A stretch of DNA of 64,000 nt from positions 240,783 through 304,782 of the forward strand of contig NZ_KB908057.1 in assembly GCF_000382325.1 (NCBI RefSeq), read 5' to 3'. The translations under genes were made by a program, and so were the position numbers. This stretch comes from Woodsholea maritima DSM 17123 (GTDB lineage: Bacteria; Pseudomonadota; Alphaproteobacteria; Caulobacterales; Maricaulaceae). Positions 27,152-31,905 of the stretch are shown in pieces. A model generated the notes under the pieces. That model saw only the letters and a list, made by a program, of their open reading frames with translations, had not been told where the DNA came from and did not search any database. Positions within the stretch are counted from its first letter, which is position 1; each line of letters begins with the position of its first letter.

Positions 27152-28978
27152 TTACTCAGCCGGTCGGGCCAAAGCCTGGGGGTGCGCGTTTTGGTGAGCC
27201 TCGTGAAACGCGTCTGACAGCATGGGGCGTTTGGGGGCTTCGGTATGAATGCCCGATTGTTGGCGCACGATTGTGCGGTAAATATCCATGATGTCGGCAA
27301 AAACCGAAGCCGCGGTCGGCCAGCGCCCGGCCCCTTTGCCAAAGACGGTGTGAACTTGACCGGTGCGTTCGGTAACCAGGAAGGCATTTTGCTCATTTTT
27401 CGCGGCGGCCAGGGGATGGTCCTGCGGCAGAGACAGGATTTCCACTTTCGCGGTGATCGAACCATCAGGGTTTAAGGCCGCCGTGCCGACCTGCTTTAAG
27501 ACTTCACCGCGCGCCAGGGCAGCTTGGGCCAGCTCCGGCGTAATATCGGCCAAGGATTGCTTGGGGATACGGTTGGGGGCGACATCACGGCCAAAGGCCC
27601 GGCGAATGATCAGAGACAGCTTATCCGCCGCGTCATGGCCATCGACATCGGTACTAGGGTCGGCTTCGGCAAAGCCCAGCTCTTGCGCTTTTTTCAAGGC
27701 CGCATCAAAACTCCACCCTTCACTCAGGCGGGCCAAGAGATAATTGCCGGTGCCATTCATCACGCCTTCGACCTGACGCACACCGCTTTCCACGGCCAGA
27801 CGGTCCAGCGCCTCGATAATCGGTGTGCCCCCGCCTACAGCGGCGGAGAAATGTAGGGCCAGGCCTTTATCATAGGCTTTGGGGATCAGGCGGTCATAAT
27901 GCTTGGCCAAGGCGGCTTTATTCGCCGTTACGATGTGGGCGTTTTCATGAAGGCCGCGCTCAATAATATCGGCAGGCCAGTCCGCGCCGCCGACCAGCTC
28001 CACGATGATATCCGGCTGATTAGCAAGTGCGGTATCGAGATCCTTGGTAAAAACAATGCCTTCAGGGGCGGTTGCTTGATGGGCCTCAACATTACGCACC
28101 AGAACAGGGCCGAGCTTGAACAGGTCCGGGCGATCGAGCAAGTGTTGCAGCGTGCCTTCACCCACCGCGCCGCGGCCCAATAGGGCGACTTTCAATTGCG
28201 GATCTTTGGCGCGCGGGCCTTCTTCGATCGCGGTATCGGCAACACGGGTTGCATAGCATTTACCCGGTGAGGCCACTTCGATGACAACGCCTTTGGCTTT
28301 GGCTTCCAGAATGGCTTTTTCCTGGATCAAACCGGCAGAGACTTTGACCGCTTCGTCATAATCGAGCGCATCAAAGCGGGCCGCATCGGCATATTTGTTC
28401 GGATCGCGCGCATAGACGCCGTCAACATCCTTGATCAAGCGCACCCGGTCTGCGCCAATTTCATGGGCAAAGAAGACCGCGGTCAGATCTGTGCCGCCCC
28501 GACCCAGGGTGACAACGCCATTTTGACCCTCGGCAATAAAGCCAGGGGCCACCAAAACCTCATTGGTGGTCAGACGGGCCGCCACCGCGTCTGCATCAAT
28601 GCCGGTCAGATTGGCGTCCAGGGCATCGCCCTCAGCGGTCAAACCGATTTCATGGGGGTCTAAAACACTGGTGCGAATACCTACATTCGCTAGAGCCAAC
28701 GCCATCAGGGCCGAGGATTTCAGCTCACCCACACGCACCAGACGTGCGCTCAGATCCGCGGGCGGGGTGACGCCCACCTGATCGGCCAGGCCAAATAAAG
28801 CATCTGTCTCACCGGCCAGAGCCGAAACCACGGCGACGACTTTTTCGCCATTGCGCACATGGCGATAAATCTCATGCGCGGCTGCGTCATAATCTTCGAT
28901 CTTGGTGAGGACAGAGCTTCCGAATTTGAGAACGCATATCGGGGCGCGGCAGGGGATCTTGTTATTGGGCTTGGCCAT
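27152..28978 (-). CDS. thrA: Short bifunctional aspartate kinase - homoserine dehydrogenase without ACT domain
   Basis: A 608-residue fusion that catalyses the first and third steps from aspartate to homoserine. Residues ~14-245 are an amino-acid-kinase fold (KFGSSVLTK where the norm is KFGGTSV; GRGGTDLTA; DVDGVYARDP). Residues ~263-600 are homoserine dehydrogenase: the NAD loop LLGRGAVGEGTL, TANKAALAKH, the substrate loop EGVMNGTGNYLL and DVDGHDAADKL. Enterobacterial ThrA is about 820 residues because two ACT modules sit between the halves; here they are absent and the linker is about 15 residues. Feedback by threonine at the protein level is therefore doubtful, and the attenuator upstream may carry the control. 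GGAG stands eight bases before the ATG. Confidence 0.9.
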   Translation of the reverse strand: MAKPNNKIPCRAPICVLKFGSSVLTKIEDYDAAAHEIYRHVRNGEKVVAVVSALAGETDALFGLADQVGVTPPADLSARLVRVGELKSSALMALALANVGIRTSVLDPHEIGLTAEGDALDANLTGIDADAVAARLTTNEVLVAPGFIAEGQNGVVTLGRGGTDLTAVFFAHEIGADRVRLIKDVDGVYARDPNKYADAARFDALDYDEAVKVSAGLIQEKAILEAKAKGVVIEVASPGKCYATRVADTAIEEGPRAKDPQLKVALLGRGAVGEGTLQHLLDRPDLFKLGPVLVRNVEAHQATAPEGIVFTKDLDTALANQPDIIVELVGGADWPADIIERGLHENAHIVTANKAALAKHYDRLIPKAYDKGLALHFSAAVGGGTPIIEALDRLAVESGVRQVEGVMNGTGNYLLARLSEGWSFDAALKKAQELGFAEADPSTDVDGHDAADKLSLIIRRAFGRDVAPNRIPKQSLADITPELAQAALARGEVLKQVGTAALNPDGSITAKVEILSLPQDHPLAAAKNEQNAFLVTERTGQVHTVFGKGAGRWPTAASVFADIMDIYRTIVRQQSGIHTEAPKRPMLSDAFHEAHQNAHPQALARPAE

Positions 28979-29019: not shown

Positions 29020-29050
29020 AAAAAACCCGCTGCGCGGTGTGCGGAGCGGG
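29020..29050 (-). terminator. Threonine-operon attenuator terminator
   Basis: On the minus strand CCCGCT pairs with AGCGGG, with three more pairs (CGC/GCG) inside past a C-C mismatch, followed by TTTTTT. It lies between the leader peptide stop (29080) and the thrA start (28978). The 5' arm can instead pair with the leader frame (see 29043-29101), as in classical attenuation. Confidence 0.85.
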
Positions 29051-29101
29051 GTGAGAGAACTTTGGGGTTTTACTTCGTGTTAGCCCAAGTCACGCCGCTC
29101 C
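29043..29101 (-). promoter_or_regulatory. Antiterminator pairing of the thr attenuator
   Basis: The minus-strand segment GGAGCGGCGTG (29091-29101), inside the last codons of the leader peptide, pairs with CACCCCGCTCC (29043-29053), the 5' arm of the terminator, in 10 of 11 positions. A ribosome halted at the threonine codons leaves this strand free to form the antiterminator; a ribosome that runs on covers it. A separate hairpin, ATGGGTA/TACCCAT (29102-29121), lies just before and may be the pause stem. Confidence 0.75.
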
Positions 29102-29163
29102 ATGGGTAAGGGGGTACCCATAGTCGAGGGGGTGGTGGAGGTGGTAATGACTGTCTGGCGCAT
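29080..29163 (-). CDS. thrL: Threonine-rich leader peptide of the thr operon
   Basis: A 27-residue frame, MRQTVITTSTTPSTMGTP followed by LPMERRDLG, with seven threonines and one isoleucine, the two amino acids that depend on this pathway. It ends 101 bases before thrA, ahead of a terminator hairpin, and its final codons contain the antiterminator strand, which is the arrangement of enterobacterial thrL. The start is uncertain: the ATG at 29163 lacks a clear ribosome site, and an in-frame ATG at 29226 would give 48 residues with GGAG about 13 bases upstream. Either way the threonine cluster and the attenuation logic are unchanged. Confidence 0.8.
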   Translation of the reverse strand: MRQTVITTSTTPSTMGTPLPMERRDLG

Positions 29164-29226
29164 AGGCGTCAACGCCCACCCAAGACCGGTGGGGAGACTT
29201 GCCAGGACCGGATTGTATCGGTTCAT

Positions 29227-29664: not shown

Positions 29665-29790
29665 ATGACCACACTGACCCAAAAGTTCTACGCCATTGAG
29701 ATTGCGAAACGCGCCGTGCGTTTCGTCACTCTCGCCTGCGCGTGGCTCAATATGGTCATTCGTGGACACAAGGGAGCGGTAGCCGGATAA
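29665..29790 (+). CDS. Leader peptide of a second attenuator (41 aa)
   Basis: A 41-codon frame starting MTTLTQKFYAIEIAK and ending GHKGAVAG, 89 bases before the ACT-like gene. About ten residues are Val, Leu or Ile, notably a VRFVTL stretch and NMVIR close to the end, which suggests sensing of branched-chain amino acids; the enrichment is modest. The case for a leader is structural: the codons AAG-GGA-GCG-GTA contain GGGAGCGG (29772-29779), exactly complementary to the 5' arm of the terminator that follows. The true start could be a later in-frame GTG or ATG. No good ribosome site is seen. Confidence 0.55.
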   Translation: MTTLTQKFYAIEIAKRAVRFVTLACAWLNMVIRGHKGAVAG

Positions 29791-29824
29791 AGCCTCGATC
29801 ATCAGATCACAGCTAGACCCCAGA

Positions 29825-29860
29825 CCCCCGCTCCCAAACCGGAAGCGGGGGTTTTCTTTT
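29825..29860 (+). terminator. Attenuator terminator before the ACT-like / LeuA-like pair
   Basis: CCCCCGCT pairs perfectly with AGCGGGGG around an 11-base loop, followed by TTTTCTTTT. It stands 20 bases before the ATG of the next gene. CCGCTCCC (29828-29835) overlapping the 5' arm can alternatively pair with GGGAGCGG (29772-29779) in the leader frame. Confidence 0.85.
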
Positions 29861-29879
29861 GCGCCAAAGGAGACCTGAC

Positions 29880-30305
29880 ATGACTTGCATTGTAAATCCG
29901 GCCAATTTGCCAGCGATTGCCCTTAATGCCGCCGTCATTAAGGTCCAAGGCATGGGCTATTATCCGCCCAAGATGAGCGCCAAACCGGTGCCGGGCGAAA
30001 CACCTTTCAGCTTTGAGAGCGGGTTCGTGGAAATTGAATTTATCCCAGATGAGGGCACAGCCAGCGCCTTGATCGAACGGGTCGAAGCCGCCGGTTATGT
30101 GGTTCACGATGTGGAATGGCCCTCTTTAGGGGAACAAAACCAAGCCTCTTTGGGTTTATTCGTCACACAGACACCTTCCCCTGCGATCGCGAGAGAGATG
30201 AACCTCCACACCCAAGACTTGGCCGAGTTGATCCGTGCGCATAGCGCGGTGATATCGGTGCGCCTGATGCGTGAAACCCGTCATCGAGAAGGCTCGAGGC
30301 TATGA
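29880..30305 (+). CDS. Small protein with possible ACT-like fold
   Basis: A 141-residue protein of unknown family. From residue ~40 the order strand-helix-strand-strand-helix-strand can be read: FVEIEF, then GTASALIERVEAAGY, VVHDVEW, ASLGLFVTQT, a helix up to AELIRAHSAV, and ISVRLMR. This is the ferredoxin-like topology of ACT domains, which bind amino acids, and a glycine stands at the usual strand-helix turn (PDEGTAS). The assignment is inference from pattern only. AGGAG lies nine bases before the ATG. The stop overlaps the LeuA-like gene by four bases, and the pair is controlled by the attenuator upstream, so it could be an amino-acid-sensing partner. Confidence 0.6.
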   Translation: MTCIVNPANLPAIALNAAVIKVQGMGYYPPKMSAKPVPGETPFSFESGFVEIEFIPDEGTASALIERVEAAGYVVHDVEWPSLGEQNQASLGLFVTQTPSPAIAREMNLHTQDLAELIRAHSAVISVRLMRETRHREGSRL

Positions 30306-31171
30306 CGCGCACGATTGATATTCTAGACCTGACCTTGGGCCAGCGTTTGACGCAAGGCCAGGATGAAAGCCGTGATTTGATCGCGCTGGCCCGCCAGATC
30401 GTGGGGCTGGGCGTGGATGGAGTGGATCTGGGCCATATCAGTGCGGCTTCGCACAGCTATGATCAGGCGCGTGAGGTATTGCCCTATCTCAGTGCCCTTA
30501 CGCTGAGTGTTCAAGCGCCCTGTCGGCGCAGTGAAATCGCGCTGGGCGCGGAAATGCTGCGCCGGCATAGCGGACAAAAACGCCTGCATATCTATGCGGA
30601 TATGAGCCCGCAATCGCCTGCGCGTCAGGCCGGGCGGGCTTTGACCCATTTGCTCGATGATCTCTATCAAGGCGTCACTGAGGCGCGTGATCAGGGTGTT
30701 GAGGTTCACTTTACCGCGCGCAATGCTCTGCGTACGGAGCGCGGTGTCTTGATTGAAGCCTTCACCGTTGCGGTTCAGGGCGGGGCAAGTATTTTAAGCG
30801 CAGCCGATACCAGCGGTTATGGTACGCCGGATGAAACCTTAGGGCTTTTCCGTCAGTTAAAAGCCAAGGTGGTGCGCAACCGCGCGATCACTTTGGGCGC
30901 GCAATCGCATAATATGCTGGGCCTTGCCGTCGCCAACAGCCTGGCTGCGGTTCAAGGCGGGGCCACACAGATTGCCACCAGCTGGGGCCCTCAGCCCGGC
31001 CGCCATAGCGTGTGTAGTCTGGATGATTTGATGATGGCTTTAAGTGTGCGTCATGACGCATTGAACATCCGCACACGCCTGGACCGTGCGCGGGTGTTGG
31101 CGATGCCTTTGGCGTCTGATTGTGAGGATGTGGCTTTGCGTCCCCCACAGGCCTGGGCCGTGGGGGAATAG
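30302..31171 (+). CDS. LeuA/HMGL-like TIM-barrel protein with degraded active site
   Basis: A 289-residue protein related to isopropylmalate/homocitrate synthases, limited to the TIM barrel. Homology is clear in ADTSGYGTPDET and SHNMLGLAVANSLAAV, but the catalytic signature is lost: the TTLRDGEQ strand reads LTLGQRLTQ, so the Arg and the metal-binding Asp are missing; and the HCHND motif reads AQSHNM, so the first His and the Asp are missing. The C-terminal LeuA regulatory domain is absent. It is probably a pseudoenzyme or has a changed reaction. It overlaps the ACT-like gene (ATGA) and both lie behind an attenuator. The frame is intact and codon use is like its neighbours, so this is not a decaying pseudogene. 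Confidence 0.75.
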   Translation: MTRTIDILDLTLGQRLTQGQDESRDLIALARQIVGLGVDGVDLGHISAASHSYDQAREVLPYLSALTLSVQAPCRRSEIALGAEMLRRHSGQKRLHIYADMSPQSPARQAGRALTHLLDDLYQGVTEARDQGVEVHFTARNALRTERGVLIEAFTVAVQGGASILSAADTSGYGTPDETLGLFRQLKAKVVRNRAITLGAQSHNMLGLAVANSLAAVQGGATQIATSWGPQPGRHSVCSLDDLMMALSVRHDALNIRTRLDRARVLAMPLASDCEDVALRPPQAWAVGE

Positions 31172-31905
31172 GGGGCTATAAAAACGCACGCGCCGTATAG
31201 TGAGAATTGGAATAATAACCTGTCATCCCGGCCTTGAGCCGGGATCTATGGGCCTAGGGGGCAACCACGATAGATCCCGGCTCGCGACTTTGAGTGCGCT
31301 ACCGCCTTTCGGCTACTTGAGCGCTAACGCTACTCCGCGATGACACTATGAGGATGCTTTGAGTGTAAGCGTCTGTGTCGTCATGCCCCCTCAGTCAGCT
31401 TCGCTGACAGCTCCCCCGTAAACAGGGGAGCACACCCCTCTGTCATGCCAGACGTGATCTGGCATCCATGCCGTAAGCAAGCAGTATATTCGGATCGACC
31501 AGAACCAAGCTCACTCCGTCCGGCATGGACCCCAAATCAAGTTTGGGGTGACAGTTTTTCAAGACATCCTTGCTTCGTGTGCGCTTGCGCTCTCTTATGG
31601 AGCGATGGACCCCGGATCACGTCCGGGGCCGCGTTGTGCCTAGAACGCGTGCTGGGTTTTCGGACAAGCGGCGTGCTCATGTTGGCGAAAGCCGATGGTT
31701 TTGAATAGCAAGCTGTGATCCCGGACGAACGATAGCGCTCAAGTAGCCGATAGGCGGTAGCGCACTAAAATGTGAGATCCGGGATCTATAAACCTTGCCA
31801 GCAATCTCAACAGGTCCCGGCTCAAGGCCGGGATGACAATGGGAGTATGCAAGGAGTGTGACCTGTTTGGGGGCGGGCTTTTAACCCTCGCCTGCGTGAA
31901 TTGAC
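31172..31905. repeat. Island of REP-like palindromes bounded by a 23-bp inverted repeat
   Basis: No credible gene lies here. The island is framed by an exact 23-bp inverted repeat (31222-31244 and 31815-31837). Inside are a 34-bp inverted pair with one mismatch (31293-31326 and 31733-31766) and several self-complementary units of one style: TGCCAGA-TCTGGCA (31445-31465), CCCCAAA-TTTGGGG (about 31530-31549) and CCCCGGA-TCCGGGG (about 31610-31629), each around a five-base centre. These look like intergenic palindromic repeats. An 87-codon frame at 31445-31708 only follows these repeats. Confidence 0.8.

Follow-up and report, generated by a model that had tools for sequence, protein, structure and literature searches.

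An attenuator-type leader, an IlvM-like gene and a LeuA-like barrel gene of Woodsholea maritima as a probable in-place remnant of an ilv-leu operon

The stretch of Woodsholea maritima DSM 17123 analysed here (the window; 64,000 nucleotides of contig NZ_KB908057.1) contains a leftwards-transcribed thrA gene (27152–28978) with amino-acid kinase and homoserine dehydrogenase domains, and a divergent, rightwards-transcribed group of features beginning with a leader open reading frame (ORF) of 41 aa (29665–29790). The 5′ strand of a putative antiterminator (GGGAGCGG; 29772–29779) lies within the leader frame and is complementary to positions 29828–29835, which fall in a terminator composed of a stem-loop (29825–29851) and a T-rich tract (together 29825–29859). 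A ribosome-binding site (AAGGAG; 29867–29872) precedes the first of two rightwards-transcribed genes, which encodes a 141 aa ACT-like protein resembling IlvM (29880–30305). The second encodes a LeuA-type TIM barrel of 289 aa (30302–31171) that lacks the active-site residues as well as the post-barrel and regulatory domains. The two genes share 4 nt, in agreement with an earlier reading made from the sequence only, which had placed two overlapping genes behind the leader. To the right of the barrel gene is a non-coding stretch (31221–31838) with dispersed palindromic repeats, at the place where relatives carry ilvE, leuC and the remainder of leuA.

The pairing between the leader frame and the 5′ arm of the terminator, also proposed in the sequence-only reading, holds: CCGCTCCC (29828–29835), which lies within that arm, is the exact 8-bp complement of GGGAGCGG. 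When the 3′ arm of the terminator is omitted the 8-bp antiterminator is present in the minimum-energy fold (−24.7 kcal/mol, z −4.6), and the terminator folded alone has −22.7 kcal/mol (z −4.2); when both sequences are present the terminator prevails. The locus thus has the leader ORF and the mutually exclusive antiterminator and terminator of a branched-chain amino-acid (BCAA) ribosome-stalling attenuator. A strict attenuator-terminator pattern occurs at three loci in the genome, the one in the window and two other BCAA leaders (four entries, the operon terminator being matched on both strands; the reversed pattern, as a control, gave none). The window stem-loop is not among the entries of a simple terminator scan, and Rfam has no match at the leader. 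A search with the leader peptide found itself and one match with an E-value of 0.07 in genome G022, opposite an unrelated ORF. The window attenuator is a real attenuator-type leader.

The codon content of the leader, which reads MTTLTQKFYAIEIAKRAVRFVTLACAWLNMVIRGHKGAVAG, differs from that of its counterparts. Leu, Ile and Val account for 6 of the 20 codons preceding the in-frame Gly of GGAGC, compared with 8–13 in the same 20-codon stretch of ten relatives; the genome's other two BCAA leaders have 12 and 10. Six or more of 20 are expected from composition with P 0.23, computed from nine proteins of this genome in which these residues make up 21.1%, and the control-codon run of a BCAA attenuator is absent from the window leader. 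Because the pairing is retained while the Leu/Ile/Val content is at this level, the switch is inherited and its specific Leu/Ile/Val input looks lost.

IlvM is the small subunit of acetolactate synthase. The product of the first gene aligns with IlvM over residues 49–138, its C-terminal two thirds, with the first ~46 residues unmatched; hhalign against a profile of 12 IlvM proteins gives an E-value of 2e-7 at ~22% identity. The profile score of 43.3 is well separated from the best of 200 shuffled sequences (18.0; none of the 200 as good) and from the best of 13 other proteins (19.2), which bears out the previous description of a probable ACT-fold protein. The similarity was detected with the 12-IlvM profile alone; BLASTP against the IlvM of the same genome gave no match, and in Pfam the protein is below detection. 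A single-sequence structure model is poor (pLDDT 36.5). A test for an origin of the N-terminus by fusion with the beginning of ilvC did not establish it: anchored P values were 0.003–0.009 with three IlvC proteins of genus g5 and 0.07–0.87 with the other nine, and there was no profile match.

The product of the second gene matches the Pfam HMGL-like family (PF00682; 1.7e-26), and is an HMGL-like barrel closest to the 2-isopropylmalate synthases. Its matches to bacterial 2-isopropylmalate synthase models (best 4.5e-38) are confined to the first ~265 model residues, the best NCBIfam model scoring 131 bits, far below its curated cut-off of 532; the best match to a solved structure is 3rmj (E-value 8.4e-30). 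The protein ends after the barrel, and the HCS_D2 and LeuA_dimer domains that Pfam finds in the operon LeuA of the same genome are absent. It is about 28–33% identical to 13 LeuA proteins, compared with 55–73% for the two LeuA proteins of this genome against the rest of that set, and it retains 54 of the 139 columns that do not vary among the 13, some of which lie past its end. In the alignment RDGEQ lies opposite GQR with the Arg and Asp deleted, and HCHND lies opposite QSHNM, such that HCH becomes QSH and one of two metal-binding His residues is kept; the sequence-only reading had likewise noted the missing Arg and Asp of the RD strand and the first His and Asp of HCHND. SAED has also lost its Glu, and GERAGN most of its residues. 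For a close relative, the part of the published account drawn on here (PMC11532901) names three metal ligands (Asp90, His288 and His290), two residues in contact with the substrate (Arg89 and Thr257) and four others of the active site (Gln93, Glu227, His388 and Tyr399), and describes the Arg as invariant and essential across the superfamily. By our motif mapping the barrel keeps only Thr257 and His290 of the nine residues named there; His388 and Tyr399 would belong to the missing post-barrel part. Judged from these residues, it is not credible that the barrel catalyses the isopropylmalate synthase reaction in the established way. A single-sequence structure model of the barrel is also poor (pLDDT 42.0).

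Searches for orthologues of the barrel covered five overlapping genome sets, so that the counts are not additive, with thresholds of 1e-36 to 1e-39 set to pass orthologues and stop most LeuA proteins, at which a very fast-evolving orthologue could escape. Apart from the barrel itself they returned three proteins from 119 genomes, all LeuA with frames of 584–617 aa; eight from 137 genomes of the family (at 1e-36), all with frames of 532–618 aa; three from 398 genomes of the order (584–617); and none from 385 genomes of the class or 388 of the phylum. A search for the IlvM-like protein in 61 genomes found one, itself, and scans of genome contigs gave no relative of either protein. The genomes listed include no second one of the same genus, and open-licence PMC papers searched by title and abstract start include none on an inactive LeuA. 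The search for orthologues that had been proposed earlier yielded none in sets of 119 to 398 genomes.

The position of the locus is informative. A search for thrA found the gene in 18 of 40 relatives at 1e-100 (the match in genome G034, locus L032 on C35, has one internal TGA), and 16 loci were fetched, 12 of those 18 chosen by thrA and four from genomes picked by LeuA match. In 10 of the 16, from genera g5, g14 and g15, thrA is divergent from a leader-ilvC-ilvG-ilvM-leuA-ilvE-leuC operon (6 of the 12 chosen by thrA, and all four chosen by LeuA). One locus (L052) has thrABC-ilvD-ilvC-ilvG-ilvM-leuA-ilvE-leuC on a single strand, and the remaining five (L046 and L048–L051) have no ilv or leu genes beside thrA within the stretch fetched. 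The three g10 loci (L046, L048 and L049) still have the thr terminator, with other ORFs occupying the ilv side; the divergent operon at these loci was lost, moved or never present. On the thr side of the window, positions 29020–29180 (minus strand) contain the thrA leader frame with ...MRQTVITTSTTPSTMGTPLPMERRDLG, GGAGCGG and a terminator, a Thr/Ile-codon attenuator, and each of the 10 relatives with the divergent operon likewise has the thr-side terminator ahead of thrA.

At the same site the window has the leader, then the IlvM-like gene and then the barrel gene, an order that matches ilvM followed by leuA in the relatives. Because its IlvM-profile match is far above the controls and it precedes the leuA-like gene, the first gene stands at the place of ilvM. 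The window terminator and its flank are 95–96% identical over 44–46 nt to those of the g14 loci L043–L045, six other relative loci have weaker matches in the terminator region (77–82% over 39–62 nt), and L047 has no match to it; AAGGAGACCT, ahead of ilvC in L043–L045, is the same as the ribosome-binding site region of the window, and the window thrA is nearest to that of g14 (60%). GGAGCGG is common to all 10 relative loci, in which the pairing and the terminator recur at the same site with complementarities of 7–8 bp (6 bp in L047). Because of this recurrence, the predicted pairing and terminator exceed chance. The leader-pairing test suggested in the sequence-only reading thus has a divided outcome, as the pairing is kept in 10 relatives but there precedes ordinary BCAA genes. 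Its larger claim, that regulation of a catalytically dead synthase is conserved, is not supported: the attenuator predates the dead protein and comes from a normal ilvC-ilvG-ilvM-leuA-ilvE-leuC operon, and the run of Leu/Ile/Val codons has been lost from the window leader, which is an ilv-leu operon leader by descent.

The genome has two long LeuA relatives of the barrel, of 532 aa and 526 aa, both at other sites. The gene for the former is within an ilvD-ilvC-ilvG-ilvM-leuA-ilvE-leuC operon, and that for the latter has a Leu leader and is followed by ilvE; operon gene names are our reading of the sequences and their order, with Pfam confirming the two LeuA, IlvM-type ACT and IlvG domains. At both loci (L015 and L016; G000:C2 and C7) the leader is rich in Leu, Ile and Val and has an in-frame GGAGC close to its stop codon. 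In trees the operon LeuA groups with the LeuA of genome G003 (support 99/99 with the barrel included, 99/98 without it), which has the same gene order as the ilvD-containing operon, and the C7 LeuA groups less firmly with the in-place LeuA of g5 (94/91, or 81/90 without the barrel). Both full-length LeuA proteins are on long branches. The tree cannot place the barrel, which has an end branch of 10 changes per column, and its descent from the in-place leuA is therefore argued from synteny and gene order. The LeuA groupings, the gene order shared with G003 and the g14 affinity of thrA would fit, as far as sequences can indicate, a history in which a second, different type of operon arrived and the native one then broke up. 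The dispersed palindromic repeats behind the barrel gene could have served in such a rearrangement; in the window they make up an inverted repeat (31221–31838) with 125-nt arms that are 78% complementary, and the genome has 114 occurrences of TTGAGCCGGGATCTAT with no more than two mismatches, compared with one for the control. A relaxed search of 31172–31905 for remnants of leuA, ilvE and leuC gave a best E-value of 0.04.

We conclude, with a probability of about 0.75, that the pair is the in-place remnant of an ancestral leader-ilvC-ilvG-ilvM-leuA-ilvE-leuC operon, with the barrel still kept as a protein. The reasons are the synteny, the close terminator match to g14, the IlvM match and the presence of a working operon elsewhere in the genome. 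The homology of both genes, the loss of catalytic residues and the erosion of leader codons are observed directly. Points that weigh against this conclusion are the barrel's lack of a tree position, the low codon preference of the IlvM-like gene, the five loci with no ilv genes close to thrA and the collinear arrangement in L052.

Plain decay, with both ORFs as functionless relics that are open by luck, would account for the lack of an orthologue in any set searched and for the eroded leader codons, and the IlvM-like gene has a low synonymous codon preference (0.092, fifth lowest of the 50 ORFs in the window). However, when the two LeuA proteins of this genome were drifted by random substitution to the mean identity of the barrel (insertions and deletions being excluded), only 0/200 and 2/200 runs stayed free of stops. 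The barrel gene has an ordinary codon preference (0.285, 29th lowest of 50). In simulations with 0.2 neutral changes per site 0–1 of 200 runs reached this value, and with 0.3–0.5 changes 0/200 did, such that 0.2–0.3 changes would erase it; the 4-nt overlap and the intact ribosome-binding site also speak against decay. The LeuA-profile score of the barrel was considered as proof of constraint, since in each of three simulations 0/300 sequences reached it when a single LeuA was drifted as far as the barrel's identity to it, but a fairer control starting from the diverged LeuA proteins of this genome reached it in 77/200 and 4/200 runs. Because drift attains equal scores, the score is no proof that the fold is retained, and this result also is compatible with decay. 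On balance decay of both genes seems unlikely, and maintenance of the barrel gene is rather likely from its sequence properties. With an open frame and an ordinary codon preference, the barrel is probably an inactive, re-used protein and not a dead gene.

If the gene is maintained, the barrel might catalyse a new reaction, for which the retained metal-site His and substrate-binding Thr could be cited. The loss of the RD Arg and Asp, the first metal His, the SAED Glu and most of GERAGN, together with the absence of the HCS_D2 region in which we place the general-base His, makes this improbable, and the missing Arg is the one that PMC11532901, in the part used, calls invariant and essential across the superfamily. 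A sensor or regulator under BCAA control, with attenuation conserved for that function, was favoured by the sequence-only reading and draws on the intact pairing and terminator, the IlvM-like ACT protein and the missing catalytic residues. A sensor or regulator role as such is possible on the sequence, but the attenuator came from an ordinary operon, its Leu/Ile/Val content is at chance level, and with no orthologues found no conservation is demonstrable, so that this account of the attenuator is doubtful, if somewhat less so than a new reaction. Least probable is an arrival of the pair from another lineage beside thrA by chance; it would agree with the lack of orthologues among relatives and with the absence of a tree position for the barrel, but the site, the gene order and the near-identical upstream terminator are those of the native g14 operon, and the class and phylum sets also have no orthologue.

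For an in-place remnant, the following course of events may be proposed. An ancestral operon divergent from thrABC would have lost ilvC, ilvG, ilvE, leuC and the 3′ half of leuA from the old site; a complete ilvD-ilvC-ilvG-ilvM-leuA-ilvE-leuC operon now stands elsewhere in the genome, as does a second leuA-ilvE. The leader, terminator, ribosome-binding site, IlvM-derived ACT protein and LeuA barrel domain would have been left behind, and the barrel would have been retained as a protein after losing its metal- and substrate-binding residues. The leader would no longer be specific for Leu, Ile and Val, and default termination with some read-through may keep expression low. Both proteins may act without catalysis, most likely by binding relocated partners, the IlvM-like protein with IlvG and the barrel with LeuA, because IlvM-type proteins partner IlvG-type subunits and LeuA works as a dimer. 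That the old locus has become a regulatory pair of this kind, tuning BCAA synthesis with the former attenuator as a general brake, is a tentative proposal and on present evidence an unlikely one.

If true, one member of the regulatory pair would be a relative of isopropylmalate synthase that serves as a regulator without catalysis. The locus indicates that the control region of an operon can outlive the operon's genes, and offers an example, placed by synteny, in which an enzyme of amino-acid synthesis has given rise to a non-catalytic protein at its original site. If the pair is functional, the transition from an enzyme of central metabolism to a regulator becomes testable; if it is a plain relic, it cautions that a conserved attenuator beside a dead enzyme does not equal conserved regulation of that enzyme.

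Among known systems, the leader most closely resembles the ribosome-stalling attenuators of ilv and leu operons, with which it shares the leader ORF, the antiterminator/terminator switch and the position; an attenuator of this type is described for Caulobacter ilvBN in the part of PMC4117421 used here. The window leader differs in its eroded control-codon run and in the replacement of the operon behind it by two remnants. The first of these shares with IlvM, the acetolactate synthase small subunit (ACT_5), both the place before a leuA-like gene and the aligned residues, but carries ~46 extra N-terminal residues and has only ~22% identity. The second shares the barrel domain with 2-isopropylmalate synthase (LeuA) of the DRE-TIM metallolyase superfamily, but is without its active-site residues, HCS_D2 and LeuA_dimer. 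HisZ, an enzyme-like protein without catalysis, has a fold different from that of the window barrel. The portion of PMC9734150 consulted describes it as a regulatory protein of ATP phosphoribosyltransferase. The likeness is one of analogy alone, in that an enzyme-like protein is kept without its reaction; for the window pair a partner or allostery would be conjectural.
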